From positions 1 to 20,637 of the IMG/VR virus record IMGVR_UViG_3300033182_001025: a stretch of 20,637 bases of DNA. The stretch is one strand, 5' to 3'. Positions 1-16,500 of the stretch are shown piece after piece. The translations under genes were made by a program, and so were the position numbers. Each line of letters starts with the position of its first letter. The first letter of the stretch is position 1. The notes below the pieces were generated by a model that did no database searches, was not told the DNA's origin, and saw only the letters and a program-made list of their open reading frames with translations. Origin of the DNA: a virus.

Positions 1-141
1 AAGGACCTTTATCTTAGCTTCTCAGTTGCCGATAGCAAGATAAATATGATTAAGGATACTATTACTTCTGGCGAACAGATATCCGGTGTCGGATATAAGA
101 CGACTTCTAGCTACTTAAACGGAGAACTAAAGAGGGTATAA
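1..141 (+). CDS. C-terminal end of upstream baseplate gene (probably gp6-like), partial
   Basis: The first 46 codons of the window are open in frame 1 and end at TAA (139-141), one base before the next start codon. The peptide ends with the residues SSYLNGELKRV. It is too short to identify by itself. The call rests on synteny: the next two genes resemble T4 genes 7 and 8, and in T4 gene 6 (baseplate wedge subunit) lies directly upstream of gene 7. The tight spacing suggests cotranscription with the next gene. Alternatives are another wedge protein such as gp25 or gp53, or an unrelated tail protein. Translation is certain from the reading frame; identity is inferred. Confidence 0.5.
   Translation, partial: KDLYLSFSVADSKINMIKDTITSGEQISGVGYKTTSSYLNGELKRV
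39..46 (+). promoter_or_regulatory. Candidate T4-type late promoter (GATAAATA) for the giant gp7-like gene
   Basis: GATAAATA matches the T4-like late promoter core (TATAAATA in T4, with a variable first base in relatives). It lies inside the 3' end of the upstream gene, 97 bases before the ATG at 143. ATAAATA was found only three times on the + strand of this window, each time just before one of the three gene starts. No sigma70-type -35 box is needed for this promoter class. Confidence 0.55.
131..136 (+). promoter_or_regulatory. Ribosome binding site of the gp7-like gene
   Basis: AGAGGG lies six bases before the ATG at 143, inside the last codons of the upstream gene. It is the only clear Shine-Dalgarno sequence among the three starts here and supports the choice of 143 as the start. 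Confidence 0.7.
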
Positions 142-142
142 G

Positions 143-1075
143 ATGATAAAAACTGGATTTGAGACGAGGGTAAAAGTTCAGCAAATTATTGAGAACCAAT
201 TACCAGAGTTTTTACGTTCCGAAAGTCCTAAGGCAGTAGATTTTCTAAAGCAATATTATATCTCTCAAGAATATCAGGGTGGTCCTATAGACCTCGCTGA
301 TAACTTAGATCAATATCTGAAGATTGATAATCTAACCCCAGACGTTATCAGTGGATCTGCCACTCTTAGTGCAGGAATTTCTTCTACTACCGACACCATT
401 GAAGTCTCTTCAACCAAGGGATTTCCAGCACAATATGGATTATTTCAGGTTGATGATGAAATAATCACATATACTGGTATCACTACGAACAGTTTTACTG
501 GTTGTGTAAGGGGATTTAGTGGAATTACCACCTATAACTCTAAGTCAAATCCAGAAGAATTAATTTTTAGCACCTCAAGTAAGGCATCTCATAGTTCTGG
601 AGCATCCGTAAAGAACTTAAGTGCTGAGTTTTTAAAGCAATTCTATAAAAAACTCAAGTATTCTCTTGCTCCTGGTCTTGAGAATGTAGATTTTGTATCA
701 GATCTTAAGGTTAATAACTTCCTTAAAGAAGCAAGATCTTTATATGAGTCAAAAGGAACCGAAGAATCCTTCAAAATTCTGTTCAATGTCCTTTATGGTG
801 TTACTCCAAAGGTCGTTGACTTAGAACAATTCCTCTCAAAACCCTCTTCAGCGAATTTTTTAAGAAGAGAAATTATTGTTGCTGAGAGAATTTCTGGTGA
901 TCCAACCAAATTAGTTGGACAAACCATCAAAAAATCTTCAGATACAGCAACTCAAGGTTCAATATCTGAAGTTGAGATCTTCACCAGATCTGGTATTTCA
1001 ACATATTATAAGATTGGTTTGTTTGTTGGGTATGATGATAAAGACCTGATTGAAGGAACATTTGAAATTCAACCA
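143..1075 (+). other. gp7-like N-terminal core region (residues 1-311)
   Basis: Predicted helical segments (QQIIENQLPEFLRSE, FLKQYYISQE, then 197-219) are followed by KLVGQTI at 256-262. T4 gp7 carries a comparable series: an ARFFESRSYDFYSTKG stretch leading to FLFKVLYN, then DLVGQTI. Order and spacing are similar, which makes this the best anchor for the gp7 call. A DDEIITYTG-like module (71-131) interrupts even this core. Confidence 0.65.
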
Positions 1076-4000
1076 GAAGTTAATGCAGCAAGACCAGTTT
1101 CTGTTGGATCCAGCGTAATTACTGTAGATTCTACAATTGGATTCCCTGCATCTGGAACTTTAATTTCTGGTAGCAACACTATTACTTACACCGACAAGAC
1201 TGTAAACCAGTTCTTAGGTTGTAGTGGTGTTGATACTGCTATTGATACCAAAGACCAGATCAGAACTGATGATGTCTTTTTTGGATATGAGGATGGTGAT
1301 ACAACTAAAAAGGTAGAACTTCGCATCACTGGTGTTCTCTCAGACTTTGAAACGATTGGTGATATTAAACTTGTCACAGAGGGACAAAAACTTTACGTCA
1401 AGAACGTAGGTGAGAAGGTATTCAACCCAGAGCAAGATAAGACTTATAAGCAAATCTTTTTCAACTCTTGGATCTATAACACCAGTTGTAGATTTGAAGT
1501 TGATAGTATAAGTGGTTCCAACTTCGTTTTAAAGTCTGAGATTGATAAGTCTAATTTAAAAGTTGGAGATACTGTTGACATTCTTCTTGGTTCAACAGAG
1601 AACGTTGCACATTCTAATGCAACTGTAGCATCAATATCTGGTAGTCAGATAACTCTAAACAATCTTGTTGGATTTACACACGATTCAACTTTAGACTATT
1701 CTATCAGAAGGAAGTTGAAGACCGCCACAAGTTCTGGAACTCCTCTGATTTATGGCAATGATGTAATCACAAGTGACATTCAGAATGTTTATAACGAGAA
1801 CGATCAGTATTTTTACGTTGCGTCAAACTCACTACCATCTTATGATATTACTGAAACGGTATCTAAGGCAGTTTTAGCATCTGCAAGTGGAAGTGCTCTT
1901 GCTGGATATGATGTAAATACTGAGAAGTATTCAATTCTGTCTTTCAGTTCTAGTGTTCCCTTCATCACTGGAGACGAAGTTTACTATACTGCAGAGAATG
2001 CCACTCTAAACGGTCTCTCTGAGGGGACTTATTATGTAAAAGTTCTCTCTCCAAATAACCAAATTAAACTGTATCTGTCACGCTCTCTGATCGTTAGTGA
2101 CAATCCAGTTGAATTTACTTCAAAAAGTTCAACTGGTTCACATACTTTTGTGCTGGCATCACAAAAAGATGAACTGATTTATCCTCAGAAAAATCTCAAA
2201 AAGTTTCCAAACTCTGGCAATATTAGAACTGGAAACAACGCTGAGACTATTCCAGGATCCGTTGGAATGCTTATCAACGGTGTTGAGGTACTGAACTATA
2301 AGTCAACCGATAAAGTCTATTATGGACCCGTAGAGTCGGTTAATCTGTATAATGGTGGAACGGGATATGATGTGGTTAATCCACTGACTGTTGAGTTATC
2401 AAATCCAGGTACTGGCACAACTGCTTTAGCAAGACCAGTTATAAAAGGAACTCTTAAGGAAGTTATTGTAGATCCACAGAATTTTGATGTTAAGAAGGTT
2501 GTCTCAGTAACTTTATCTGGTGGCAATGGTTCGGGTGCGATTTTAGAACCTGTAGTAGAGAAGAGACAACGTGAAGTTGAATTTGATTCACGCCCAACTT
2601 ATGAAGGTGGCGGAGTCAATATTTACACTGAGACCCTGAAGTTCTTGGATGAGCACAACTTCTCCAATGGAGATAAGATTCTTTATGATAGAAACGGCAA
2701 TAACCCAGTAGGCGTATCTTCATATCTTGGAAGTAATCTTGATCTTGGCACTACTTTAAGTAGTGAATCTGCATACTATGCCGAAGTTGTTGATACAACG
2801 TCCATCAAACTGTATCCAACTCTTAGTGACTACAATAGTGGTATTAACACTGTAGGATTCACCACTTCAAATACCCAAGGTATTCACAAATTCAAAACTT
2901 TTGATCTGAAGAATACCCTCAGATCTATCAAGGTTATTAATCCTGGTTCTGAGTATGAGAATAGAAAACTTATTGTAAAACCAGAGAATGTATCAACTAT
3001 TGAGGATAACATCAACTTTGAGAATCACGGATTCTCTGATGGCGATCTTATTGTATACAGCACTGATGGAACTGCAATCACTGGTCTTTCAACTTCCTTA
3101 GAATATTATGTTCTGAAGCAAGACGATAATAATTTTAGACTGGCAAATGCTGGTGCTGGTGGCACAATATCATCTAATTATCAGAGCAGACATTATGTAA
3201 AACTTTCCAGCACTGGTAGTGGTTATCAAAACTTTGCTTACAAACCACTTGAACTGACAATCAATGTTGAATATGACGGTGTAGGTGGAACAATCGTTGC
3301 TTCACCTATTATCACTGGTGAAATCACAGATCTTTATCTGTATGAGAAGGGTACTGGATATGGATCCAGTGTGCTCAACTTCCACAAGAAACCATCAGTA
3401 TTGTTCAAGAATGGTAAAAACGCTGAGATAAGAGCGATTGTATCTGGCGGTAAGATTGATACAATTCAAATCAGCAATTCTGGGGTTGAATACTTCTCTG
3501 CACCAGAGTTGGTTGTATCTGGTAGTGGAATTGGAGCAAAACTGAGAGCAGTAGTATCTGGAGGAAAGATTACAAGAGTTGTTATCGTTAATCCTGGTAT
3601 TGGATATGATGATAATACTACAATTAAAGTAGTGCCCAGAGGTAAGAATGCTTTTGCCGAAGCGTATGTTCGTTCTTTAAATCTGAACAATGTTGACAGA
3701 TTCTCAAATGAGATTCTGATTGATAATCCATCAAACAGTCAAGGTATGGAGTATGCCTTAGTTGGGTATACGACCAGTATTGGTGAGATTTTTGATGATG
3801 ATGGATTGTCACACTCACCAATTATTGGATGGGCATATGATGGTAATCCAATCTATGGATCATATGGATATACAAATCCAGATGATTCCAATTCAACTGT
3901 TAAAATATTAGAATCCAGTTATACATTATCAACTTCCGATGTAGTTGACAGACCTTCTGGATTTAGTTCTGGATTCTTTATTGAAGATTATAAGTTTGAT

Positions 4001-7000
4001 GGTTCTGGCGATCTTGATGCCTATAACGGAAGATATTGCAGAACTCCAGAGTTCCCCAACGGTGTATATGCTTATTTTGCTACAATTTCGTCTTCAGATT
4101 ACACATCAAAATTCCCATACTTCGTTGGAGACAAATATAAGTCTCTACTTGTAAATCAAACCTTAGATCAAGATTTTGATTTTAATAGTTCCAACTTAAT
4201 CAGAAATACATTCCCATACAAGGCATCTGATGTATATTCGGACAATGACTTCATTTCCGAACCATATGAGATACTTCTCCAAACGGCAGAAGTTAAGTCT
4301 GTAACAAGAGGATCTATCAATGGATTCACTATCAATGAAGAGGGTAGTGGATATGCTGTTGGGGATGTTGCATCCTTCAATAACACCAATACAGAAGGAT
4401 CTGGTCTAAGTGCAGATGTAAGAACTGTAACTGGTAAAGCAATTACAGATGTTTCAACAACTTTAGATACATATCAGAACGCAAAACTTGTTTGGGAAGA
4501 TTCTAACACAGTATCTTTACACACCGATAATTCACATATTATTGTGGATGGTGACAGCATTGTTGTTTCTGGTCTGTCAACTTTCGTCAATGGATTGACG
4601 AAATCCCATTTTGCTGGTATTTCTTCAGACAAGTCATATTTGGTGGCAGAAGTTCCTGCTAATACTAGTGCTGGTGTTGTAACAGACATCTATGTCTCAA
4701 GAATCCCAGTAACAGTATCTACAGGTTCAACAATTGCTATTGGAACTGAAAGAATGTCAGTTCTCAATACATTCTCTGATAATAAAGTAATTCGTGTAGA
4801 AAGAGGTGTTAGTGGGTCTGCACATACATCTTCAACAGAGTTTACTGTATTTGATGGTAAGATTACTCTTTCAACAAGAAGTTCATACTTTGATTCCAAA
4901 CTGAACGATAAGGTTTACTTCAACCCCGTACACTCTGTTGGTATTGGTACTGAAACTGGTCTGTCTTCATCAAACAACTATGTAATTGGCAATGTAACTA
5001 AATCAGTATCTGTACCAAATCAGAGCATCTATTTACCAAATCACCCATTCAAGACATCTCAACCAGTAACTTTAGCGATTGTTTCTGGTGCAAATGCTAT
5101 CTCAGTATCTAATACATCAACTAGCTCCACCTTTAACATACCTAGTGGCACCTCTCAAACACTGTATGTAATCAACAAGTCAAAAGATTATATTGGTCTT
5201 ACCACTCAGGTTGGATTATCTACAAGCACTGATGGTCTCTACTTTAGATCTTTCTCATCAAATGCCGATGATAAGGACTACAAGTATTCTTTAGAATCAA
5301 ACTATAATCAGATAACTGCTAAAATCCAAAGGGTAAAATCAACAATATCAGTATCAACTTCTCACTTGATGCAGAATGGTGATATTATCAATCTGACTGT
5401 AAATCCAAATCAATCTGTTGGTATTGGAACTTCTACTGCAGTTGTTGTCAAATACAACTCCGATAACAATAAGTTGCTGATCAATCCAGTAGGATTTACT
5501 TCATCAGTTGTTAGCACTAGTGCTAATACAATTACTTTGACTTCACATGGATTCAAAACTGGCGAAAAAGTATTCTATAGTTCTTCAGACTTCCTGATAT
5601 CTGGAGTAACAACTGGTTCTTACTTTGTTTATAGAATTGATGACGACACCTTTAATCTGACAAACACTAGATATGATGCTTTATCATCGCCACCATCCAT
5701 CGTAAGTTTTGCTTCCACTGGTGGTCTTGGACAAGAAATATCCAGAATAAATCCACAAATCAAGGTTATCAGAAATAATAATCTGGTGTTTGATCTTACA
5801 GATTCTTCATTGAGTGGGTATGAACTGAAGATCTTTGAAGATAATAACTTCTACAATGAATTAGTATCAACTGGATCAACAACTTCATTCAGTGTTTCTG
5901 GTGTAGGTACAGTTGGCGTTTCAACTAATGCATCACTCACACTGAATTACAGTGCAGAGTTGCCATCAAAACTCTACTACGGATTGGAGAAATCGGGATA
6001 TATTAGCACTGCTGATAGAACAGTAGAGAATGGATATGAGATTCTGTTTGAAGATAGTGTATATAATGGTTCTTACACCATCTCTGGTATAGCAAACACA
6101 ACCTTTGTTATTTCTTTAGACTCTATTCCAGAGTCTTTAACTTACAACCAAAATAATACCGAAGTTCTTAAGTACTCTACTTCTTCAGCAACTGCCAGAG
6201 GTGGTGTAGATTCTATGAGAATCACTGATCCTGGATTGAATTATAAGAAACTTCCAAGTTTTGTTAGTATTGCATCTTCTGCAGGCGAAAATGCTGATAT
6301 CACTCCAAAGTCTTCTGACATTGGAAGAATCAATGAAGTTATTATCAACGATCCAGGTTTTGACTTCTCAGCAGACAAAACACTGAGTCCTGAAGCATAT
6401 GTCTCACCAACTATCAATATTATCAATAGAAACACTATTACCGATATTGAAATTGTCTCTGGTGGATCTAACTACACCACAAATCCAGATCTGGTTATTG
6501 TAAATCCAGAAACAGGTACTGCATATACTAACGGTATCTTAGAATCTAAGATTCAAGGTTCTTCAGTATCTTCAGTTTCAATTATTGAGTCTCCAAGAGG
6601 ACTGTCTGAAGTAAAGAGTAAGGTCTACGCAATTAACAACAGCAACGGTGTTGGAATCAAGAGTTGTATTTCTTCAACTGTTGGATTAGTAACTTGCGTT
6701 CTGGTAACTCCAATATCTGGATTTACAACAGCACCATTTACTGTTGGTGAAAAGATCTTTGTTGAGGGAATCAAAAAATCTGGAACTTCTGGAGACGGAT
6801 TCAACTCTGCAGATCATGGATACAATTTATTCAGTATCTCTGCCTTTAGAAATACAAACCCAGCAGAACTTGAGTTTAGTGTAGGTGAGTACACAACAAA
6901 CGCTGGAGTTGCAGTAACTGATCAAAATTCGTTCGCTTCTATCATCAGTGAGAATGATTATCCTTCTTTTGATGTAGTTCAGGTTCCCCTTTCCTTTATT

Positions 7001-10000
7001 GAAGGTGAAAAAATCTTCACCTTAACCAATGGTGCTTATGTTGAAAGAGATTTGATTGTCACCGAAAACTTGAACGATTTGATCAAGGTTTATGGAACAT
7101 ATGATTTGTCTGCCGATGAAGTTATACTCGGCAGAGATTCTGGTACAATTGCTACCATTGAATCTGTTGAGAATAATAGAGCAACCTTTAAGGTTAATTA
7201 CTCCTTGAGAAAGGATATTGGATGGTCTGATGATATTGGTAAATTGAATGAAGATTATCAGGTAACTCCAAACAATGATTATTATCAGAATCTTTCCTAT
7301 ACTATCAAGAGCCCAATTGAGTATGAAGATCTAGTAACTTCTGTAAATAGTCTTCTTCATACAACAGGTCTTAAGAACTTTGCTGATACTGGCATAACCA
7401 GCACTGCTTCTGTTTCTGCTGGAACTGGAAGAACATCTACTAGTTTTGCACTTCTTGATATCATCTCCAAAGAAAGAGTTGACACGATTAATGCATACGA
7501 TCTCGTCTTGGATTATGAAACTGAAAATGATAGATCTAAGTTTCTCAAATTCCAAAATAAAAAACTTGCAGATTATATCAAGTGTATCAGTAATAGAGTA
7601 CTGATAATTGATGACATAAAGAACGAATTCTCTAGCAGCGAATCAAACAACGATCTTTACACCGATACCGTTGATTACAGTATCAATGATGGATATAGCA
7701 GATTCCTGGTTCAGATTATAAATCCAAACGATAGTGAAAGACAAACTACAGAAGTTATAACTTTATCTTCTGCAGATGGTGATATCATTACTGTAGAGAA
7801 AGGATCTGTATACTCAACTGCAGAATCTGTTGGAGATATTTCTGCAAACCTTTCAGAGTTTGGTGACCTCTCCTTGAGATTTACTCCTACAGAGAAGTTT
7901 AACTCTGACTACGATATCAAAGTTCTGAAGAATAATTTCTCATCATCAATATCTGGAGTTGGAACACAATCTGTTGGATTTATTGATCTTGTTGGTTCCA
8001 ACATCACTGTTGGATCTGGTTCAACTGGATCTATTGTCAGTTCAACTACTTCAACCACAGAAGCATTCTTTGCAAATATTGAGGTAAGAAACACTGATAC
8101 GAATGAGAGAAATTATGTAGAGTTGTATGTTGATCATGATGGAACTGATACCTTTGTATCCGAAGTATTCTTTGACAATGGATCTCCAGTTCAAACATCC
8201 ACAAACTTCATAGGAACATTTACCGCTTCTATTGATTCTGGTGTTCTCTCAATTGATTTCACCAATGATGAGTCAGATTCTGTCTTTATCAGATCAAAGG
8301 TTGTTGGATTTGGAACGACTTCGGTTGGTATTGGAACTTATAAGTTTGCTACTGCTGGTCAACCAGCAGGAACAGAAAAAACAGTTAGACTCCAAAGCAA
8401 CTTCATCTCTGCTTCTGGAATCTCAACAATCTTCACTGTATCAAAAGAAGATGTTACTTCTATTAAATCGGTAGCAAAAGTTGGATTTGGTAATACAACA
8501 GCACTGCATCAGTTCCTCATTATTCATGATGATACTGATACTTATACTGTTCAATATCCATTCTTAACCTCAGGTAGTGAAACTGGAATTGGTACATTTG
8601 GATCTTCAATCAATGGTTCAGATGTTGCAATAGAATTCCATCCAGATGCGTCAGTAACTGATGTAGTTACAATTCAGACTTATAGTGAGATTGTTCAAAC
8701 TGAAAGAGATCTTGTTAATATTCCACAAGATCTGACTTATGGAAGTATTTCAGAATCGGTTGTTGTTTCTTCTTATAACGCAATTAACGGAGATAGGATC
8801 AATAAAACCATATTTGATCTCAACACTAATGGAATTCCTATTTTTGAGAAGTCATTCAATCCATCAGACACCGATGTTTTGAATCTGTCTACTGGCGTAT
8901 TTACAGTTAGTGACCACTTCTTCAGTACAGGCGAAAGATTAATCTATGAATCAGGATCTTCTTTTGATGGAGGAACTTTCAGCGATATTCAAGTCTCTGG
9001 TGCAAGTAGTCTTCCTTCTGAAATATATGCAATTAGAGTAAATAGTGATCAATTTAAGTTAGCAACAAGCAGATCAAACGCTACTGCAGGAACTGCAATA
9101 ACCTTTAGTTCTGCTGGTACAGGAAACGCCCATACTCTTGAAATGTATAAGAAGATGGAGAAATCCATCATCTCCATCGATGGTGTTGTTCAAAGTCCTA
9201 TTGCCTTTACACCCATCAACCACACATTACAAGACAATGGTGGAACGGTTGGTGCTGCAGCAACATACTTCTCAATCTCTGGAATTTCTTCAATTCTTCC
9301 TGGTGATATTCTCAAGGTTGATGATGAATATATCAAGGTAGAATCTGTTGGAATTGGTACAACGAATACTGGACCAGTTACTGGAATTGGTACATTCAAT
9401 ATTGTCAAGGGTGAGAGAGGATTTGTTGGCACAACAGCAACTTCACACACTGATGGTGCAACTGCAAGAGTATATCTTGGTGCCTTTAATATCGTTGACA
9501 ATCAAATTTACTTTACAGAACCACCAACTGGTAATAGTTCTGAACCTGTTGATTCTGGCAACTTAGCATATCCAAGATCAACTTTTGCTGGAAGAGTGTA
9601 TTTGAGAAATGATTATACAACAAACCAAATCTATGATAATATCTCCAAGTCGTTTACTGGCATTGGTCAAACTTATACACTGACCGTTGGTGGTGCAAAT
9701 ACTACTGGCATTGAAACTGGTAGTGGTGTTCTGTTTATTAATGACATCTTCCAAACTCCAACTACGGAAAACAATACTGGAAACAACTATAATTTCATAG
9801 AGAATTCTGGTATTTCTAGTGCAGTATTCACTGGAATTACAACTTCAGGTGGATTGTTGATTTCCGATTATGATGTAAATCAAAATCAACTCCCAAGAGG
9901 CGGTATCATTGTTTCTCTTGGTTCCACTTCAGGATTGGGATTTGCACCTCTTGTAGGAGCATCTGTAACTGCTGTAGTTGGTGCTGGTGGATCTATTGTA

Positions 10001-12004
10001 TCTGTAGGACTTGGAACAACTGATATTGTTGGTTCTGGTTACAACGGAATCGTTTCAATTGGTGTTACTATTGTTGAGAGTGGTCACTCTGGTGATGTTG
10101 CTACAATTACTGCTACCGTAGGTGCTGGTGGAACTTTATCGTTTACTGTTGGTTCTGGAGGAACTGGATATACCAACCCCTCAATCTTCGTATCAGAACC
10201 TTCTTATGAGAATCTTTCAGTAACTGGAGTATCTAGAAGAGGAATTGGAAATACTACAGATACTGGAACTGGTCTCTTGGTATCAGTTGATGTTGGAGCA
10301 AGTTCTACAACTGGTATTGGTTCTACAATGTTTGAGGTAACAAACTTCAAGATCAGTAGACCCGGATATGGATTCAGAGTTGGTGATGTTATCAAACCTG
10401 TCGGTCTTGTAACAGATAAGAATCTTTCTTCACCTGTTGAAGAATTTACACTTACCGTTTTAGATACATTCACAGATTCATTCTCTGCTTGGCAGTTTGG
10501 TGAACTGGATTATATCGATCCAATTACCACTCTTCAAAATGGAGTGAGAACCAGATTCCCACTGTACTACAATGGTCAACTATTAAGTTTTGAAGTTGAT
10601 GAAAATAATCCACAGTCTGCCGAAATTGATCTGAGTGCAGTTCTTCTGATCTTTATCAATGGTGTTATTCAGGAACCAGGATTTGCTTACACCTTTGAAG
10701 GTGGAACATCATTCAGTTTCACTAGAGCACCAAGAGAAGAAGACGATGTTGCTATCTTCTTCTATAGAGGAACTAGAAATGAAGATAGTCTTTCGGTGAA
10801 CATAACTGAAACCATAAAAGTTGGTGATGTACTCAAAGTTCGTAAGAACAATAATATTGATGGAACAGTTACACAAAACATAAGAACAATCTATGACATA
10901 ACCACTTCTGACGTTGTAGAAACAAATCTTTATGCTGGTGTAGGAGTTGATGAAACTAATTACAAACCAACAGACTGGATTAAGCAGAAGAAGGACATCA
11001 ATGTCAACGGTGAAGCAGTTTATAAGTCAAGAGATTCTATTGAACCTCAAGTTTATCCAACTGCAAAAGTAATTGGAGATCTCTCAACTTCCGATACTGA
11101 AATCTTTATTGACGACGCACAATTCTTCAATTATGAAGAAAATGAGTCTTCAATTGTAATCGCAGATGTTGATGCACTGATTGTTCAGGGACAAGATCCA
11201 GTTGCTGCAGGAATAACTGCCGTTGTCTCTGCCGCTGGAACAATTAGTTCTCTGTCAATCGTTAGTGGAGGATCTGGTTATGTTGGATCTTCTGCAACAG
11301 TCTCAATTGCATCGCCAAAGCATGTTGGTGTTGGTATTGGAACAACTGCAACTGCAACCGTCACAATTAGTGCTGGAGCAATAACTTCTGCAACTATCGT
11401 AAATCCAGGATCTGGATATACAACTGCAAATCCACCTCAGGTTCTTGCACCAACTACAAATACATCTTATGAAAACATTACCTCAATTGACACTGTACAA
11501 GGATTCTCTGGTATTGTAACTGGAATTTCCACATCTGCTGGAACTGGATCAAATCCACTTGCAATTGTCTTCCGCCTTAATTCTTCAAACTTTGACTCGG
11601 ATCTTGTCGTTGGATATCCAATCTTTATTTACGATACTGCAGTTGGTTCTGGAGTAACTTCAATTGATAATAAGGATGCAGACACTGTTGGAATTGGTAC
11701 GACATTTGCAGACAATGTTTATATTATTCACGCCCTAGATTATCCAGGAGGAACTTCTGGAATTGTAACTTGTAATGTTTTATCAACTACAGATACGATT
11801 GGATTATCAACAACTGGATCAACTACAAGTCCAGCAGGTAGATTCTCTTGGGGCAGATTATCAGGATTCTCAAGATCTTCTTCACCAATCTCAATTGGTG
11901 TAACAGGATTAGTTGTTGACTCTGGATTATCAACATTCCCAACAATTCAAAGAAGAGGATATGGTTTGAGAGACACTGGCAGTTTGAGAAAGGATCTGGG
12001 ATAG
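143..12004 (+). CDS. Giant modular baseplate wedge protein, gp7-like (3953 aa)
   Basis: Probable structural protein in the T4 gene 7 position, between a gp6-like end and a gp8 homologue. T4 gp7 is the wedge backbone that nucleates baseplate assembly and is about 1030 aa, so this protein is nearly four times as long. Residues ~1-300 recall a C-proximal part of T4 gp7: a helical ARSLYESKGTEES.FKILFNVLYG motif at 197-219 and KLVGQTI at 256-262. A second block at 2369-2416 recalls the gp7 segment that follows. Between and after them are repeats: DDEIITYTG-like (71-131, 317-369, 3038-3111), HGFxxGD-like (598-671, 830-920, 953-1031, 1795-1866, 2916-3001), GxGY-like (several), a YHYH-like domain (1204-1335) and INGVxQxP motifs (3012, 3199, 3505). 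It has no signal peptide or membrane segment and only about eight Cys. The start is supported by AGAGGG and a one-base gap. The gp7 assignment is by eye from memory of the T4 sequence. Confidence 0.75.
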   Translation: MIKTGFETRVKVQQIIENQLPEFLRSESPKAVDFLKQYYISQEYQGGPIDLADNLDQYLKIDNLTPDVISGSATLSAGISSTTDTIEVSSTKGFPAQYGLFQVDDEIITYTGITTNSFTGCVRGFSGITTYNSKSNPEELIFSTSSKASHSSGASVKNLSAEFLKQFYKKLKYSLAPGLENVDFVSDLKVNNFLKEARSLYESKGTEESFKILFNVLYGVTPKVVDLEQFLSKPSSANFLRREIIVAERISGDPTKLVGQTIKKSSDTATQGSISEVEIFTRSGISTYYKIGLFVGYDDKDLIEGTFEIQPEVNAARPVSVGSSVITVDSTIGFPASGTLISGSNTITYTDKTVNQFLGCSGVDTAIDTKDQIRTDDVFFGYEDGDTTKKVELRITGVLSDFETIGDIKLVTEGQKLYVKNVGEKVFNPEQDKTYKQIFFNSWIYNTSCRFEVDSISGSNFVLKSEIDKSNLKVGDTVDILLGSTENVAHSNATVASISGSQITLNNLVGFTHDSTLDYSIRRKLKTATSSGTPLIYGNDVITSDIQNVYNENDQYFYVASNSLPSYDITETVSKAVLASASGSALAGYDVNTEKYSILSFSSSVPFITGDEVYYTAENATLNGLSEGTYYVKVLSPNNQIKLYLSRSLIVSDNPVEFTSKSSTGSHTFVLASQKDELIYPQKNLKKFPNSGNIRTGNNAETIPGSVGMLINGVEVLNYKSTDKVYYGPVESVNLYNGGTGYDVVNPLTVELSNPGTGTTALARPVIKGTLKEVIVDPQNFDVKKVVSVTLSGGNGSGAILEPVVEKRQREVEFDSRPTYEGGGVNIYTETLKFLDEHNFSNGDKILYDRNGNNPVGVSSYLGSNLDLGTTLSSESAYYAEVVDTTSIKLYPTLSDYNSGINTVGFTTSNTQGIHKFKTFDLKNTLRSIKVINPGSEYENRKLIVKPENVSTIEDNINFENHGFSDGDLIVYSTDGTAITGLSTSLEYYVLKQDDNNFRLANAGAGGTISSNYQSRHYVKLSSTGSGYQNFAYKPLELTINVEYDGVGGTIVASPIITGEITDLYLYEKGTGYGSSVLNFHKKPSVLFKNGKNAEIRAIVSGGKIDTIQISNSGVEYFSAPELVVSGSGIGAKLRAVVSGGKITRVVIVNPGIGYDDNTTIKVVPRGKNAFAEAYVRSLNLNNVDRFSNEILIDNPSNSQGMEYALVGYTTSIGEIFDDDGLSHSPIIGWAYDGNPIYGSYGYTNPDDSNSTVKILESSYTLSTSDVVDRPSGFSSGFFIEDYKFDGSGDLDAYNGRYCRTPEFPNGVYAYFATISSSDYTSKFPYFVGDKYKSLLVNQTLDQDFDFNSSNLIRNTFPYKASDVYSDNDFISEPYEILLQTAEVKSVTRGSINGFTINEEGSGYAVGDVASFNNTNTEGSGLSADVRTVTGKAITDVSTTLDTYQNAKLVWEDSNTVSLHTDNSHIIVDGDSIVVSGLSTFVNGLTKSHFAGISSDKSYLVAEVPANTSAGVVTDIYVSRIPVTVSTGSTIAIGTERMSVLNTFSDNKVIRVERGVSGSAHTSSTEFTVFDGKITLSTRSSYFDSKLNDKVYFNPVHSVGIGTETGLSSSNNYVIGNVTKSVSVPNQSIYLPNHPFKTSQPVTLAIVSGANAISVSNTSTSSTFNIPSGTSQTLYVINKSKDYIGLTTQVGLSTSTDGLYFRSFSSNADDKDYKYSLESNYNQITAKIQRVKSTISVSTSHLMQNGDIINLTVNPNQSVGIGTSTAVVVKYNSDNNKLLINPVGFTSSVVSTSANTITLTSHGFKTGEKVFYSSSDFLISGVTTGSYFVYRIDDDTFNLTNTRYDALSSPPSIVSFASTGGLGQEISRINPQIKVIRNNNLVFDLTDSSLSGYELKIFEDNNFYNELVSTGSTTSFSVSGVGTVGVSTNASLTLNYSAELPSKLYYGLEKSGYISTADRTVENGYEILFEDSVYNGSYTISGIANTTFVISLDSIPESLTYNQNNTEVLKYSTSSATARGGVDSMRITDPGLNYKKLPSFVSIASSAGENADITPKSSDIGRINEVIINDPGFDFSADKTLSPEAYVSPTINIINRNTITDIEIVSGGSNYTTNPDLVIVNPETGTAYTNGILESKIQGSSVSSVSIIESPRGLSEVKSKVYAINNSNGVGIKSCISSTVGLVTCVLVTPISGFTTAPFTVGEKIFVEGIKKSGTSGDGFNSADHGYNLFSISAFRNTNPAELEFSVGEYTTNAGVAVTDQNSFASIISENDYPSFDVVQVPLSFIEGEKIFTLTNGAYVERDLIVTENLNDLIKVYGTYDLSADEVILGRDSGTIATIESVENNRATFKVNYSLRKDIGWSDDIGKLNEDYQVTPNNDYYQNLSYTIKSPIEYEDLVTSVNSLLHTTGLKNFADTGITSTASVSAGTGRTSTSFALLDIISKERVDTINAYDLVLDYETENDRSKFLKFQNKKLADYIKCISNRVLIIDDIKNEFSSSESNNDLYTDTVDYSINDGYSRFLVQIINPNDSERQTTEVITLSSADGDIITVEKGSVYSTAESVGDISANLSEFGDLSLRFTPTEKFNSDYDIKVLKNNFSSSISGVGTQSVGFIDLVGSNITVGSGSTGSIVSSTTSTTEAFFANIEVRNTDTNERNYVELYVDHDGTDTFVSEVFFDNGSPVQTSTNFIGTFTASIDSGVLSIDFTNDESDSVFIRSKVVGFGTTSVGIGTYKFATAGQPAGTEKTVRLQSNFISASGISTIFTVSKEDVTSIKSVAKVGFGNTTALHQFLIIHDDTDTYTVQYPFLTSGSETGIGTFGSSINGSDVAIEFHPDASVTDVVTIQTYSEIVQTERDLVNIPQDLTYGSISESVVVSSYNAINGDRINKTIFDLNTNGIPIFEKSFNPSDTDVLNLSTGVFTVSDHFFSTGERLIYESGSSFDGGTFSDIQVSGASSLPSEIYAIRVNSDQFKLATSRSNATAGTAITFSSAGTGNAHTLEMYKKMEKSIISIDGVVQSPIAFTPINHTLQDNGGTVGAAATYFSISGISSILPGDILKVDDEYIKVESVGIGTTNTGPVTGIGTFNIVKGERGFVGTTATSHTDGATARVYLGAFNIVDNQIYFTEPPTGNSSEPVDSGNLAYPRSTFAGRVYLRNDYTTNQIYDNISKSFTGIGQTYTLTVGGANTTGIETGSGVLFINDIFQTPTTENNTGNNYNFIENSGISSAVFTGITTSGGLLISDYDVNQNQLPRGGIIVSLGSTSGLGFAPLVGASVTAVVGAGGSIVSVGLGTTDIVGSGYNGIVSIGVTIVESGHSGDVATITATVGAGGTLSFTVGSGGTGYTNPSIFVSEPSYENLSVTGVSRRGIGNTTDTGTGLLVSVDVGASSTTGIGSTMFEVTNFKISRPGYGFRVGDVIKPVGLVTDKNLSSPVEEFTLTVLDTFTDSFSAWQFGELDYIDPITTLQNGVRTRFPLYYNGQLLSFEVDENNPQSAEIDLSAVLLIFINGVIQEPGFAYTFEGGTSFSFTRAPREEDDVAIFFYRGTRNEDSLSVNITETIKVGDVLKVRKNNNIDGTVTQNIRTIYDITTSDVVETNLYAGVGVDETNYKPTDWIKQKKDINVNGEAVYKSRDSIEPQVYPTAKVIGDLSTSDTEIFIDDAQFFNYEENESSIVIADVDALIVQGQDPVAAGITAVVSAAGTISSLSIVSGGSGYVGSSATVSIASPKHVGVGIGTTATATVTISAGAITSATIVNPGSGYTTANPPQVLAPTTNTSYENITSIDTVQGFSGIVTGISTSAGTGSNPLAIVFRLNSSNFDSDLVVGYPIFIYDTAVGSGVTSIDNKDADTVGIGTTFADNVYIIHALDYPGGTSGIVTCNVLSTTDTIGLSTTGSTTSPAGRFSWGRLSGFSRSSSPISIGVTGLVVDSGLSTFPTIQRRGYGLRDTGSLRKDLG
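353..535 (+). repeat. DDEIITYTG-type module, copy 1 (residues 71-131)
   Basis: Pattern: TIEVSSTKGFP, then a VDDEIITYTG strand, then F-GC-RG and a Gly/Thr turn. Related segments occur at 1091-1249, 9254-9475 and, in the downstream DUF4815 gene, 19430-19633. Probably a small beta module of phage tail proteins. Function is unknown. Confidence 0.55.
1091..1249 (+). repeat. DDEIITYTG-type module, copy 2 (residues 317-369)
   Basis: VITVDSTIGFPASG, then NTITYTD and F-GCSG follow the same order as copy 1, including the shared GFP and GC dipeptides. The acidic DDE is replaced by GSN. Confidence 0.5.
1934..2155 (+). repeat. HGF-type module, copy 1 (residues 598-671)
   Basis: Pattern: an ITGDEVYY strand, GLSEGTYYVKV, a polar turn, an IKLYLS strand and a closing STGSHTF. 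This matches the four other copies in this gene (hydrophobic-F-x2-GD/E-x-(I/V)-x-Y ... G-x5-YYV ... F/I-x-L ... STG-x-H-x-F), though the leading HGF is degenerate here. Confidence 0.55.
2330..2566 (+). repeat. GxGY-type module, copy 1 (residues 730-808)
   Basis: A VNLYNGGTGYDVV opening is followed by PLTVELSNPG, a Gly/Ala-rich strand and a second VVSVTLSGGNGSGA half. The period is roughly 40-60 residues (I/V-x-I/V-x2-x-G-x-GY, strand, GxGA-x-A-x-V, G-x-I). It belongs to the family also found in the gp8 and DUF4815 genes here. Confidence 0.6.
2630..2902 (+). repeat. HGF-type module, copy 2 (residues 830-920)
   Basis: DEHNFSNGDKILY is followed by YYAEVVDTTSIKLYP and ends with NTQGIHKF. It has the same order of motifs as the other copies, with a longer loop before YYAEV. 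Confidence 0.6.
2999..3235 (+). repeat. HGF-type module, copy 3 (residues 953-1031)
   Basis: INFENHGFSDGDLIVYS, then ITGLSTSLEYYVLKQDDNNF and a closing STGSGYQNF. With copy 2 it forms a near-tandem pair separated by a short GSEY-containing linker. Confidence 0.65.
3287..3673 (+). repeat. GxGY-type module cluster, three successive units (residues 1049-1177)
   Basis: Three units follow each other: ITDLYLYEKGTGYGSS, IDTIQISNSGVEYFSAP and ITRVVIVNPGIGYDDN. They are separated by the Ala/Gly strands NAEIRAIVSGGK and GAKLRAVVSGGK. The two SGGKI hinges are nearly identical, which shows internal duplication most clearly. A repetitive beta structure is likely (inference). Confidence 0.7.
3752..4147 (+). 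other. YHYH-like domain with its histidines replaced (residues 1204-1335)
   Basis: HSPIIGWAYDGNPIYGSYGY at 1225-1244 is the hallmark opening of YHYH-family domains (G-A-DG-PIYG-G). It is followed by LDAYNGRYCRTPEFPNGVY and by FPYFVGDKYKS near 1325-1335. The family's name motif Tyr-His-Tyr-His is replaced here by YAYF at 1309-1312. Canonical domains occur in bacterial secreted proteins, with unclear function. Here it is probably structural or surface-binding. Confidence 0.7.
4310..4462 (+). repeat. GxGY-type module (residues 1390-1440)
   Basis: INGFTINEEGSGYAVGDV is followed by a GSGLSADVRTVTGKAITDV strand pair. It is a single unit of the same design as the clusters at 3287-3673 and 6200-6535. 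Confidence 0.55.
4582..4603 (+). other. Perfect 9-bp inverted repeat with 4-base loop inside the gp7-like gene
   Basis: TTTCGTCAA (4582-4590) and TTGACGAAA (4595-4603) are exact reverse complements separated by TGGA. The stem encodes part of TFVNGLTKS. It could form a stable mRNA hairpin. It lies mid-gene with only a short T tract after it, so it is not called a terminator; chance is possible. Confidence 0.6.
5525..5740 (+). repeat. HGF-type module, copy 4 (residues 1795-1866)
   Basis: NTITLTSHGFKTGEKVFYSS is followed by ISGVTTGSYFVYRIDDDTF and ends in FASTGGLGQEI. This is one of the cleanest copies, with the HGF-x2-GE-x-VFY core intact. Confidence 0.65.
6200..6535 (+). repeat. GxGY-type module cluster (residues 2020-2131)
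   Basis: Three degenerate units are visible: VDSMRITDPGLNYKKLP, INEVIINDPGFDFSADK and ITDIEIVSGGSNYTTNP. The terminal Gly-Tyr has drifted to N-Y, D-F and N-Y, so the copies have diverged but keep the I-x-I-x-(D/S)-(P/G)-G-x-(Y/F) frame. Confidence 0.6.
7247..7390 (+). other. Second gp7-like core block (residues 2369-2416)
   Basis: NEDYQ, DYYQNLSYTIKSP, then VNSLLHTTGLKNFADT recall the T4 gp7 stretch DYINRSRSYYVMKIKS followed by a VHPVGFGFIAI-like run. In T4 this follows the VGQTI motif by well under 150 residues; here the gap is about 2,100 residues. A conserved-looking block with RVDTIN and CISNRVLIIDDI follows to ~7640. The match is by eye and moderate. Confidence 0.5.
8888..9145 (+). repeat. 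HGF-type module, copy 5 (residues 2916-3001)
   Basis: VFTVSDHFFSTGERLIYES, then LPSEIYAIRVNSDQFKLATS and ITFSSAGTGNAHTLEM. The HGF is HFF here. The last part (F-x-L-A-x-S then G-x-I-x-F) is typical of this repeat. Confidence 0.6.
9254..9475 (+). repeat. DDEIITYTG-type module, copy 3 (residues 3038-3111)
   Basis: YFSISGISSILPGDILKVDD, then EYIKVESVG, NIVKGERGFVGT and SHTDGATARVY. The order (turn, VDDE strand, RG, H-x-DG) is conserved with copy 1, here in a fuller form with the closing histidine. Confidence 0.6.
9896..10405 (+). repeat. Gly-rich GxGY-type cluster (residues 3252-3421)
   Basis: Repeated units include VVGAGGSIVSVG, VGSGYNGIVSIG, VGAGGTLSFTVGSGGTGY and FKISRPGYGFRVGDV. It is the most glycine-rich stretch of the protein. 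Repetitive beta structure is inferred from the alternating hydrophobic/Gly pattern. Confidence 0.6.
11201..11452 (+). repeat. GxGY-type module pair near the C-terminus (residues 3687-3770)
   Basis: ISSLSIVSGGSGYVGSSATV and ITSATIVNPGSGYTTANPP are two clear units joined by an Ala/Thr-rich strand. Both keep the full G-SGY ending. The C-terminal tail after them (RFSWGRLSGF, IQRRGYGLRDTG) is non-repetitive. Confidence 0.7.
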
Positions 12005-12031: not shown

Positions 12032-13579
12032 ATGGCGGCAATTGTAACAGATCAGTTTAGAATATTAAATGCTGGTAACTTTATAGACTCAGTTAGTAAT
12101 GATTCAAACTCATATTATGTCTTTGTTGGATTAGCAAATCCAGCAGCGTCTGGATATGGTAGAGAATCTGACTGGGATACTGACACCCCATCACCAACAG
12201 ATAACTCAGATTATATGAGCTTTGTTGGTGATGCTTCTTTGTATGGTAAAAAAGTCACTTCTGCCAATGCAAGAAGATTGGTCAGAAGAATTGATTGGGC
12301 GACGGGAACAAAATATGAGATGTATCGTCACGATTATAGCATCTCCAATTTGTCCCCAATCACAAAGTCTTCAAGACTTTATGATTCAAACTATTATGTA
12401 ATCAATAGCGAATATAAAGTTTATGTTTGTATTGATAACGGTTCTTCAGGAATCAATACAACTGGTAATGCATCTTTAGATGAACCAACATTTACCGATT
12501 TGGAACCAACCAAAGCAGGTGAGAGTGGAGACGGATATGTATGGAAATATTTGTTCAGTGTCTCTCCAAGTGATATTATCAAATTTGATTCTACCGAATA
12601 TATTTCTTTACCAAACGATTGGAGCACTACTACAAATACTCAAATTGAATCGGTAAGAGATAATGCTAATTCGGATAACAACGAGAATCAGATAAAGAAA
12701 GTCTATATTGATGCACAAGGTGCAGGATATTCGCAAGGATCTCATGAATTAAATATCATCGGTGATGGAAGTGGGGCAAAGGTTGTTGTTGAAGTTGATA
12801 GTTCTGGAAAAATAACCGATACTGTTATTTCTGCTGGCGGTAAAGGATATACTTACGGTATTGTTGATCTTGGATCAATCAACGCAAATGCTTCAACAAA
12901 AGCAAAACTGATTCCTATTATCCCACCAGCAAAGGGTCATGGATATGACATTTATAAAGAACTTGGTGCTGATAAGGTCTTAGTCTATGCAAGATTTGAT
13001 GATTCTACAAGAGACTTCCCAATTGACACCAGTTTTTCTCAAATTGGGATAGTTAAGAATCCAACTGCGATTGGATCTACTTCAATATTTACTGAGAATC
13101 AATACTCATCTCTTGGTGCAATTAAGTTCTCCTCAGTCACTGGTACAGTAAACATTGGTGACAGAATCAATCAAACTGTAACTGGTGGAACAGCAAAAGG
13201 ATTTGTTGCTTCATATGATTCTGAGACAAAGGTTCTTAAATACTTCCAAGACAGATCTTTGTTCCTGAATCAGACAACCTTTGATTCTACTGATTATGTC
13301 GGTGTCTCTACGATATCAAAGGTTCTTGATTTTGAATCAAGTGGAAATGCAGTAACTACTGTTGGTGGATTTACTGGTTCAATTGAAACTGGATTTACTG
13401 GTATTACTACAAATCCAACTGGAAACAAGATCATTTCTCTTGGCACACAATTCACAAACGGAATTGCCTCTGCTGAGATAAATAAAGGGTCGGGAGATAT
13501 AATCTATCTTGATAACCGTCCAATGATCACAAGAAATTCTAGACAAAAAGAAGACGTTAAAATTATCCTGGAATTTTAA
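12032..13579 (+). CDS. 8: Baseplate wedge subunit gp8 homologue (515 aa)
   Basis: Homologue of T4 gp8, the wedge protein that binds gp7 and gp10. The N-terminus (AIVTDQFR-x-LNAGNFIDS) matches T4 AIVTSKFRTEKMLNFYNS. Near residues 168-176, GDGYVWKYLF matches T4 GDGYVWEYLF, followed by a TEYI-x-LP/VP motif. The C-terminus IYLDNRPMI (from 491) to KIILEF matches T4 IYMENRPPI to NILFTF. T4 gp8 has 334 residues, so this one is ~180 longer. Two expansions explain most of it: a GxGY module at 221-286 and a Gly/Thr-rich segment between IGIVKNP (338-344; T4 ISIITNP) and IYLDNRP. The start at 12032 is supported by homology and by TATAAATA 18 bases upstream. Confidence 0.92.
   Translation: MAAIVTDQFRILNAGNFIDSVSNDSNSYYVFVGLANPAASGYGRESDWDTDTPSPTDNSDYMSFVGDASLYGKKVTSANARRLVRRIDWATGTKYEMYRHDYSISNLSPITKSSRLYDSNYYVINSEYKVYVCIDNGSSGINTTGNASLDEPTFTDLEPTKAGESGDGYVWKYLFSVSPSDIIKFDSTEYISLPNDWSTTTNTQIESVRDNANSDNNENQIKKVYIDAQGAGYSQGSHELNIIGDGSGAKVVVEVDSSGKITDTVISAGGKGYTYGIVDLGSINANASTKAKLIPIIPPAKGHGYDIYKELGADKVLVYARFDDSTRDFPIDTSFSQIGIVKNPTAIGSTSIFTENQYSSLGAIKFSSVTGTVNIGDRINQTVTGGTAKGFVASYDSETKVLKYFQDRSLFLNQTTFDSTDYVGVSTISKVLDFESSGNAVTTVGGFTGSIETGFTGITTNPTGNKIISLGTQFTNGIASAEINKGSGDIIYLDNRPMITRNSRQKEDVKIILEF
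12692..12889 (+). repeat. GxGY-type module inserted in gp8 (residues 221-286)
   Basis: IKKVYIDAQGAGYSQG, then GSGAKVVVEVDSSGKITDTV and ISAGGKGYTYGIVDLG. Two units of the repeat family seen in the gp7-like gene. I recall no equivalent in T4 gp8, so it looks like a module insertion. Confidence 0.7.
13477..13484 (+). promoter_or_regulatory. Candidate T4-type late promoter (GATAAATA) for the DUF4815-like gene
   Basis: GATAAATA lies inside the 3' end of gp8 (in the codons for E-I-N-K), 99 bases before the ATG at 13583. Sequence and distance nearly equal those of the element at 39-46 before the gp7-like gene. Confidence 0.5.
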
Positions 13580-13582
13580 AAA

Positions 13583-16500
13583 ATGCCACAAAAAACGAAT
13601 CTCAATATAAGTCCCTATTTCGACGATTTTGATAAGGACGATAATTTTTATAGGGTCTTATTCAAACCAGGATTTCCCATCCAAGCTAGGGAGTTAACAA
13701 CTCTTCAATCTATCTTACAAAATCAGATAGAGTCGTTTGGAAGTCATATGTTCAAAGAGGGATCAATGGTGATCCCTGGTAATATCAGTTATGATGCTGA
13801 ATATTACTCAGTAAAATTAAACGCAGAACATCTTGGCATTGATGTTACCGTTTATGCTGATAAACTTGTAGGTAAGAGAGTTAGAGGTCAAGAGTCTGAT
13901 ATTGTCGCTGTTGTAGATAAGTATCTGACAGTATCTGAAACTGATGGTATTACCCATTTGACTCTGTTTGTAAAATATTTAAGTTCTGGAACAGATAATG
14001 AAGTAGCATACTTCCAGGATGGTGAAGTTCTTCTTACTGAAGAATCTTTTGTTTATGGTAATACTGAGATCGGTGCTGGAGATGGTGTAGCATCTCTGAT
14101 ATCTCAGGATTCTTGCTCAAGAGGAACATCTGTTTCAATAGGAAATGGTGTTTATTTCATCAGAGGAACCTTTGTAGATGTAGCAGCAGATAAGTTAGTA
14201 TTAGACGCTTATAGTGCTTCCCCTTCATATAGAGTTGGTCTTACAATTTCAGAAACTCTCGTTTCAGCAAAAGACGAAGATTCCTTATATGATAATGCAA
14301 AAGGATTCTCAAACTATGCAGCACCTGGCGCTGATAGACTGAAGATCTCAACAAAACTTTCTAAGAAGAGTCTTACTGACTTCAACGATAAGTCTTTCGT
14401 AGAACTTCTTAGAGTTGATAACGGCGAAATAAAAAAATTACAAAATAAGTCTGAGTATAACTTAATCAGAGATTATTTTGCTAAGAGAACCTATGAAGAG
14501 TCTGGAGACTATTCTGTAGGCAAATTTAAACTTGAGGTAAAGGAATCCCTCAATAATAATCTCTCAAATGAGGGTGTATTCTCTTCAGATCAAAAAACTG
14601 ATGAAGGTAATACTCCTTCCGACAATCTGGTTTCCGTAAAGGTATCTCCAGGTAAAGCATATGTAAGAGGTTATGATATTGAGACCTCATCAACAACTAT
14701 TCTTGATGTAGAAAAACCAAGAGATAAAGACTCTGTATCACAATCATTGGTTCCATTTGAGTTTGGAACTCTGATGAGAGTCAATAATGTATCGGGTTCA
14801 CCCCTTATCGGAGTAAACAACAATAGCAATACTGTTGAACTCTACAGTCAAAGAAAGACTTCTTTGAGCGCAGGAACTGGTGTTAAAATTGGTGAAGCGA
14901 GAGTTTATTCATTCAGTGTAACTGACGCCTCATATACAGACCCTTCTACTGAGTGGGATTTGTATCTGTTTGACGTTCAGACTTATACAATGCTGACTCT
15001 CAATGAGTCTTTGAGTTCTTCAAATTGCCCAGCATCTTCATATATTAGAGGTGTAAGCAGCGGAGCATCTGGATATGTAACTACTGCTGCTTCTGGAACC
15101 ACTATTACCCTCACCCAAACCTCAGGAACATTTATTGAAGGTGAACAACTTTTGATCAATGAAACCACAGAGGTTTCTAGATCTATTAGTTCCTTGAAGA
15201 CTTATGGTATTCAGGATGTAAAATCAGTATTCCAAGATTCCACCTCAGTAAGTGGTGGAGATCTTAAGGTTGACTTTGTTGCAGATACAGTTCTCCAAAA
15301 GATTTTACCTAAGAACTTTGGTATTTCTGACACCATCAGAATTACTACTGGTGGTGCAGTAACATCTCCAGGTAAATTCTTCACTGGTATCAAAACAGAT
15401 ACAATTATCAGATATCAGATTGCTGGGGTATCTTCGGAAACATATAACAGAGTATCTGCTGTAGCATCTGACGGATCTTCAATGACTGTTGTTGCAGTCA
15501 ATCCTACAGATCAAGTTTGCTCTGGTGCTCTGCCAGGATCAACTCAAAATGTCACCTTCTCACTTGGAGTTCCTTTAGTAAGTGATAATGGCGGTCTTTA
15601 CGCCAAAATTGATTCTAGCGATGTTGCATCTGTAAGTCTTGCAGATTCTAATCTGATTGTAACCAAACAGATTGTTGAAGAATCGACTGATTCTGACGGA
15701 ACAATGACTATTCCCATTTCTTCAGTGGGAATTACAAGTGCATTCTTTGAGACCTTTGATGCCGAAAGATATAGTGTTTTCTATTCTAATGGATCTGTAG
15801 AAGATCTGACATCTGATCAATTTACACTAAACTCTGGTGGAACTTCTGTTACTATTGATGGTCTCACTGTTTCACAAACAAGCAATGTAACAGTAAACGC
15901 TACTGTCAAAAAGAATAACATCAGAAATAAGAAGAAAGAATATACCAGAAGTCAAAAAGTTAACGTAACTAAGACTGTCAGTGGCGTATCAACCAGTATC
16001 ACTGGTCTTTCAACCAGTCAATTCTATGGTATGAGAGTTGAGGACAAAGAGATCTCTCTGAATGTCCCAGATGTAGTAAAAGTAATTGCAGTATACGAAT
16101 CATATGATTCTAGTGCTCCAACTTTAGATTCTCTTGAGTTCCCAAGTGGTCTTGGATTAGATACCAACTCTATTCTTGGTGAAAGAATTGTTGGTAGAGA
16201 TGGTAATGCTATCGCTCAGATTGTAACAAGATCTTCTGCCACAAAGGTTGAAGTTGTTTACCTCAATTCAAACAGATTCACTGTTGGTGAGGTTGTTGAT
16301 TTTGAAGAGTCAAACATCAGCACTACTGTTCAAGTAATAAATCTTGGTGATTATCAAGACGTAACTGATAAGTATTACTTAGATAAAGGGCAGAAGGAAC
16401 AATACTACGATTATTCTAAACTGGTTAGAAAGAATGATGGATATGTTCCAACCAATCGTCTGTTAGCAATCTTTGATTATTATACAGTACCTTCAAATGA

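Follow-up and report, generated by a model that had tools for sequence, protein, structure and literature searches.

Whether the backbone of a baseplate wedge can carry some 2,000 extra residues inside its core is the question raised by the gene at 143..12004 of an IMG/VR virus record of which 20,637 bases were analysed (hereafter the window; all window features given below are on the + strand). This gene is a single open reading frame (ORF) of 3,953 amino acids, and an initial annotation of the window had proposed that it contains a T4 gp7-like core divided by about 2,100 residues of repeat modules. Our reading, to which we give a probability of roughly 80%, is that the ORF encodes gp7, the wedge backbone of a marine cyanophage-type phage of the T4 superfamily, and that its core is split by an insertion at one point. 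Judged from sequence, the protein keeps the T4 segment from about 647 to 903, and an insertion of about 2,048 residues follows the small beta domain and precedes the final block.

Two blocks of the T4 gp7 core in the window protein

The first block (N block) of the window gp7 comprises residues about 7-62 and 161-310, which match T4 gp7 at about 647-826. Its first piece (161..328, residues 7-62) is helical, corresponds to residues 3-58 of the gp7 of Caulobacter phage Cr30 and to T4 from about 647, and is supported by BLAST to the gp7 proteins of Cr30 and of Pelagibacter phage HTVC008M. The second piece (623..1072, residues 161-310) holds the 'YESKGTEESFKILF' anchor, matched by a hidden Markov model (HMM) at residues 188-227, and the small beta domain, the last 28 or so residues being placed by eye. 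Both the helical piece and the small beta domain, with the segment that reads 'SKGTEES' (T4 about 647-826), are present in the window protein. Inside the helical part lies a stretch of about 100 amino acids (329..622, residues 63-160) with an R module (match at 80-142), which is a gap in the window-Cr30 profile alignment and is absent from Cr30.

No T4 sequence went into the anchor models, and the N-anchor HMM ('LYESKGTEESFKILF...') was derived from seven non-T4 gp7 sequences, the window's included. This HMM matched 27/27 T4-family gp7 ORFs with expect (E) values from 1e-10 to 2e-8, and the next match in those loci, to a non-gp7 ORF, was at E 4.8; these 27 are 26 viral-contig loci and T4 itself, close relatives which do not count as independent tests. 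Searches with T4-free profiles among the 177,635 distinct sequences of the PDB ranked the two gp7 sequences at the top for the N block (9.8e-5 and 1.2e-4; next match, 0.069), and a whole-length alignment of compact gp7 proteins retrieved only these same two gp7s (1.6e-8 and 1.5e-5), via the N anchor. By profile-profile comparison, the N block of the window family matched T4 with a probability of 87-93%, the N part of the Cr30 family matched T4 with 96.8% (Cr30-family 10-197 on T4 647-826), and the window and Cr30 N blocks matched each other with 99.2%. With phmmer, the whole window protein did not find gp7 in the PDB and gave two chance matches (E 0.8), and tblastn of window residues 201-336 reached coliphage gp7 at E 6 only.

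The second block (C block; 7217..7441, residues 2359-2433) matches T4 at about 865-903. An HMM made from 98 non-T4 sequences found it in the same 27/27 T4-family gp7s (E 4e-5 to 0.02), in T4 at residues 865-902, the next match in those loci being a non-gp7 ORF at E 0.42. When the pooled C block was compared with T4 gp7 865-903, profile-profile alignment gave a probability of 86.1% and a score of 43.1, and the maximum in 300 column-shuffled T4 profiles was 24.4. Four residues of the block are invariant across 87 sequences, and its profile found the gp7 of Klebsiella phage KP1 as the first PDB match (0.018). The window and Cr30 C blocks matched each other with 97.8%; the Cr30 block alone reached T4 with 27.8%, and the two blocks of HTVC008M alone were weak against T4 (4.2% and 19.8%). 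The final block is thus found C-terminal to the N block, as in T4, indirectly through relatives, and its link from the window to T4 runs via intermediate families.

A compact relative was folded with AlphaFold2 from 53 sequences, namely a protein of 767 amino acids identical to Cr30 gp7. Its predicted local distance difference test (pLDDT) values were 80-91 for the small beta domain and 58-72 for the C block. Among 350,542 PDB chains, Foldseek returned at E <= 0.001 only 5iv5_BJ (1.7e-6), 9f4a_A0 (9.1e-6) and 5hx2_A (5.8e-4), all of them T4-type gp7 chains, the first two being named so from their length, their entry and the PDB search with the N-block profile. VIA aligned model residues 91..729 on T4 731..896 (Z 7.6, root mean square deviation [rmsd] 18.2, 153 residues aligned) and 99..738 on residues 93..191 of 9euk_D (Z 7.9, rmsd 3.3, 91 residues aligned), a chain of 190 residues from a phi812 baseplate entry whose protein is unnamed in the database row. 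The VIA output gives the aligned range and not the share of each block; taken as ranges, these model-based alignments would put both ends of the 767-residue protein on one segment of about 100-170 residues of the solved proteins.

Several points weigh against our reading. The C block of the window family alone matched T4 with a probability of about 1%, a wrong place scoring slightly higher, and in the PDB search with the C-block profile T4 gp7 came third at E 0.30, behind an unrelated designed protein at 0.28. The Cr30 model is of low confidence (mean pLDDT 51, predicted template modelling score 0.33, helical part 46-68), it superposes on T4 with a template modelling (TM) score of 0.09 and an rmsd of 18, VIA Z values below 8 are often due to chance, with unrelated chains reaching 7.5 in the same list, and this fold evidence belongs to a relative and not to the window gp7. 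In addition, we infer rather than observe that the insertion lies at the surface and forms an arm, its binding partners likewise, and gp7 may undergo cleavage during maturation.

The first two of these points would suit a second block that resembles T4 by chance over some 40 residues, in which case the protein would be a gp7 N-terminal core followed by a very long tail. This is very improbable, given the pooled score beyond the shuffling maximum, the match at the same place in all T4-family gp7s, the best rank of a T4-type gp7 among the PDB sequences, the invariant residues and the occurrence of the block in the same order in 258 ORFs. The resemblance of both blocks to T4 gp7, in order, therefore held, directly for the N block and through pooled relatives for the C block; searched separately against T4, only the first succeeded with the window family alone. 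What the initial annotation had said of the split was right on the two blocks and their order, on the uninterrupted frame flanked by gp6 and gp8, and on the difference in spacing. It was incomplete in that the T4-like part covers only about 647-903 of T4 gp7, the preceding 640 or so T4 residues being undetected, and in that it had overlooked both the stretch at residues 63-160 and the C-terminal extension. It had also given 7390 as the end of the ORF; this position falls close to where the second block ends, and the frame stays open to 12004.

Spacing of the blocks among phage groups and origin of the insertion

The distance from the end of the N anchor to the start of the C block is 2,133 residues in the window, 2,232 in P-SSM2 and 107 in T4, in agreement with the earlier claim that the two segments lie less than 150 residues apart in T4. 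This distance falls into discrete classes: 106-108 in the T4 family (25 ORFs), 337-651 in Cr30-like (67), 512-550 in HTVC008M-like (19), 1,530-1,809 in Syn1-like (59), 2,103-2,366 in P-HM1-like (49) and 2,124-2,199 in window-like phages (39). The order of the anchors was the same in 258/258 ORFs carrying both, so that the reverse order, for which a check had been proposed, did not occur among them. In T4 the match to the C-block model begins only at position 27, against position 1 in the window, so that the like-for-like gap of T4 would be about 80 and the figure of 107 is too large by about 26. The N anchor was present in 363 ORFs in all; for 105 of these no C block was counted, and 101 of the 105 are open at the 3' end of the available stretch. 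The four closed ones comprise two compact gp7 genes with interrupted frames and the C block in the next frame (L039 and L107), one ORF that belongs to the T4 family and falls at the 9-bit cut-off (L036) and an ORF with an early end (L156).

The main insertion itself (1073..7216, residues 311-2358; boundaries accurate to an estimated ±20 residues) corresponds to at most about 38 residues in T4 (827-864), the insertion point lying between T4 826 and 865. The T4 linker is perhaps only some 17 residues long if 'GKLNEDYQ...SYTIKS' is aligned by eye with T4 'GKDLLQ...SYYVMKIKS'. The split is common to the cyanophage groups examined and not specific to the window, and it is smaller in HTVC008M-like and Cr30-like phages. 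Cyanophage gp7 proteins of very different lengths, those of P-SSM2 (5,195 amino acids), S-SRM01 (3,895), Syn1 (3,274), P-HM1 (4,446), S-PM2d081 (3,048) and S-CREM2 (1,937), are the same protein with the same split, but differ from the window in insertion length and C-terminal modules, and several records call them hypothetical or structural proteins. The window gp7 can be aligned along most of its length with those of S-SRM01 and P-SSM2 at 44-51% identity, the core pieces being 58-76% identical, the insertion 44-49% and the C-terminal extension 49-56%. The compact gp7s of Cr30 (767 amino acids) and HTVC008M (1,016) carry the same two blocks in order with only 551 and 530 residues between the anchors.

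Compared with T4 gp7 (PDB 5IV5, 5HX2), the window protein likewise lies between gp6 and gp8, and its helical piece, small beta domain and final block follow one another as they do there. Peculiar to T4 are about 640 N-terminal residues which were undetected in the window family (best of 78 windows, score 22, probability 1.4%, against a shallow T4 profile); we took them as a trait of the T4 subfamily outside the core, because the gp7s of Cr30 and HTVC008M also start at the helical piece. The window has of its own, besides the insertion, the stretch inside the helical piece and a C-terminal extension of about 1,520 amino acids (7442..12001, residues 2434-3953), in which more copies of the H, R and G modules occur at residues 2913, 3037, 3320, 3691 and 3736. 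Elsewhere the C block stands near the end of the protein, with about 24 residues remaining after it in Cr30 and about 10 in S-CREM2. In the latter (ORF122, 1,937 amino acids) the N anchor occupies residues 184-223 and the C block residues 1864-1927, the two core blocks being near opposite ends of the protein.

These distances could also mean that T4 is the odd one out and that a long-armed ancestor lost its arm in T4-like phages, since all five non-T4 groups examined have at least 337 residues between the anchors. We consider this unlikely, because gp17 of Vibrio phage XM1, which is not of the T4 group, is a compact orthologue of gp7 with 242 amino acids (available part of PMC10457771). By that paper's description, and not by sequence, XM1 gp17 is like the window gp7 a wedge partner of two gp6-type subunits but is minimal, without a large insertion. 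The chain 9euk_D, with which the Cr30 model aligns at its two ends, points the same way, although weakly at Z 7.9, and since this chain is not named as gp7 we lowered our odds for growth over loss slightly. The arm thus probably grew by insertion and by duplication of beta modules rather than being lost in T4.

Contents and possible role of the insertion

Repeat modules were recognised in the insertion, as had been claimed, but these modules (R, H and G) cover, even together with a YHYH-family domain, only 748 of its 2,048 residues. R modules lie at 1100..1279 (residues 320-379) and 4673-4852 (1511-1570). The first H module (1925..2077, residues 595-645) is followed by copies at residues 825-893, 950-1002, 1622-1688, 1731-1776 and 1790-1842. 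Three G modules ('GxGY') stand in a row at 3293..3622 (residues 1051-1160), and more copies occur at residues 719, 928 (weak), 1386, 2011 and 2093. The module HMMs were iterated on a small set containing their own seeds, so that their E-values are flattering; a control of 90 reversed or shuffled sequences gave a single match at E < 0.05 for G and none for R or H. The R module also occurs in the VrlC-like ORF of the window (13583-20635), at its residues 1956-2024, and residues about 1780-1915 of that ORF have a weak BLAST link to the G-module regions of gp7. The same building blocks thus recur across several baseplate genes of this phage.

The YHYH-family domain (3806..4090, residues 1222-1316) was identified by Pfam PF14240 with 95.7 bits against a cut-off of 25, over positions 90-183 of the 193 of the profile. 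The string YHYH itself was not found in the window protein, which has YAYF at 1309; by eye, we take this to stand in place of the family motif. Across 102 aligned sequences of the region 1005-1480 there is a single conserved histidine column, H1224, and three aspartate columns are invariant. This region is common to Syn1-like and P-HM1-like gp7 proteins with 27-35% identity. Its AlphaFold2 model is rich in beta structure (mean pLDDT 67.5), with values of 82-95 for the second and third G modules of the run at 1051-1160. Foldseek with this model gave nothing in the PDB at E <= 0.001, and the best VIA Z was 3.9, for an alignment of the G modules with immunoglobulin-type domains; therefore we claim no fold for it.

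Removal of the insertion, as an intein or otherwise after translation, would suit conserved halves flanking a long stretch of variable length. However, no Pfam splicing-domain match was present at E <= 0.1, some of the modules recur in gp8 and in the VrlC-like ORF, and the middle of the insertion is conserved in sequence, so that such removal is extremely improbable. The insertion might instead be mainly an enzymatic or receptor-binding device, built on the YHYH-family domain, and not an architectural replacement of the T4 periphery. In the available text of PMC7824862, YHYH domains are predicted to be tail-associated metal-dependent hydrolases with three conserved histidines and an aspartate, and PMC7029224 lists YHYH among the domains of putative receptor-binding proteins. 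In a chemostat with the host, S-PM2d081, described as hypothetical and as exceptionally large with its 3,048 amino acids, carried a mutation early and is listed among the mutated ORFs later (PMC9910659, available sections); it carries both blocks (L393:7531-16677; 182-222 and 1809-1875) and is now identified as a split gp7. The domain accounts for about 95 of the roughly 2,048 residues, and the three-histidine signature as given in the accessible text of PMC7824862 is not matched at 1005-1480 in the 102 sequences; with one histidine column only and no YHYH string, the prediction of a metal hydrolase is doubtful here. We regard such a device as possible but rather doubtful, and the domain could serve as a surface-binding unit, an enzymatic role being less likely.

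Under the split-core reading, and by analogy with T4, the two core pieces would in all likelihood fold together and bind two copies of gp6, the insertion leaving the core as a side arm. The arm and the C-terminal extension may then form the outer baseplate and docking sites for fibres. T4 gp7 contacts gp6, gp8, gp9 and gp10 (PMC3004832, in the part available), g10, g11 and g12 are reported missing in cyanomyoviruses (PMC2984593, likewise), and in XM1 the tail spikes are bound by a loop and the C-terminus of gp17 (PMC10457771). By this analogy, we infer that the linker arm together with the extension would be a natural replacement for the T4 periphery; whether they do the job of the N-terminal domains of T4 gp7 plus gp10-gp11-gp12 we judge to be evenly balanced. 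More tentatively, the gp7 linker may be an evolutionary docking port that has received, in different phage groups, arms of about 300 to about 2,300 residues, with the arm and the extension of cyanophages replacing the whole outer baseplate, which T4 builds from separate proteins. If the core does assemble as in T4, this would clearly illustrate how an assembly core can accept 2,000 additional residues at a single site. The presence of S-CREM2 gp7 in virions is supported by 91 unique peptides with 27.2% coverage (available part of PMC10665884).

Neighbouring genes, earlier reports and labels

The window gp7 matches phrog_2885, baseplate wedge subunit, over residues 2-3289 with 3,884 bits. It is preceded by the end of gp6 (1..138; 45 codons and a stop, cut by the window start), read from its translation and assigned by position without a profile run, and followed by gp8 (12032..13579; Pfam Phage-Gp8, phrog_438), so that it stands in the T4-type position. 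The window closes with a giant VrlC-like/DUF4815 ORF (13583..20635), cut by the window end. A gp6 or wedge subunit also lies directly upstream of gp7 in P-SSM2, S-SRM01, Syn1, P-HM1, HTVC008M, S-CREM2 and S-PM2. With residues 1-2416 of the window gp7, tblastn gave matches in 465 of 50,697 phage records, query coverage reaching 80% or more in 93 of the 465, and the top isolates were S-SRM01 (49.5%), S-SKS1 (46.9%) and P-SSM2 (44.4%, annotated gp7). By these sequence matches the large ORF is a cyanophage gp7, a name which was already known. A search at DNA level against the phage records gave short matches only, in the third ORF (5 records). The gp7 of S-SKS1 (L391) is spread over four open frames with small overlaps, in successive frames, of which the record annotates parts only; sequencing errors or real frameshifts may have broken it.

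Little seems to be known of the baseplates of cyanophages and pelagiphages. Where it discusses the non-cyanophage core, a study comparing 26 T4-like genomes counts gp7 with the divergent structural proteins (PMC3037559, in the part available). According to the available text of a survey of pelagiphages, pelagi- and cyanomyophages lack T4 gp7, and VrlC apparently substitutes for it (PMC7029224). Contrary to the latter, members of both groups keep a split gp7 core beside VrlC: in HTVC008M the ORF with the gp7 core stands between two wedge-subunit ORFs that take the places of gp6 and gp8, with VrlC encoded separately just downstream. A description of the split was not found in the open PMC papers searched, some of which were accessible in part and with subscription papers mostly outside the scope, so that the split core appears undescribed within that set of papers. 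The segments given here supply exact stretches for modelling in future cryo-electron microscopy maps.

The gp7 orthologue of HTVC008M (L006:5436-8486) is labelled 'head closure Hc2', possibly from the G ('GxGY') module, which is common to gp7, gp8 and gp14-type proteins; phrog_460 matches both gp7 and gp8 of the window. Further ORFs called 'gp7' or 'baseplate wedge initiator' lie outside the gp6-gp8 interval in P-HM1 (L010:30325-35001) and HTVC008M (L006:16146-22001), and these labels may have spread through shared modules.

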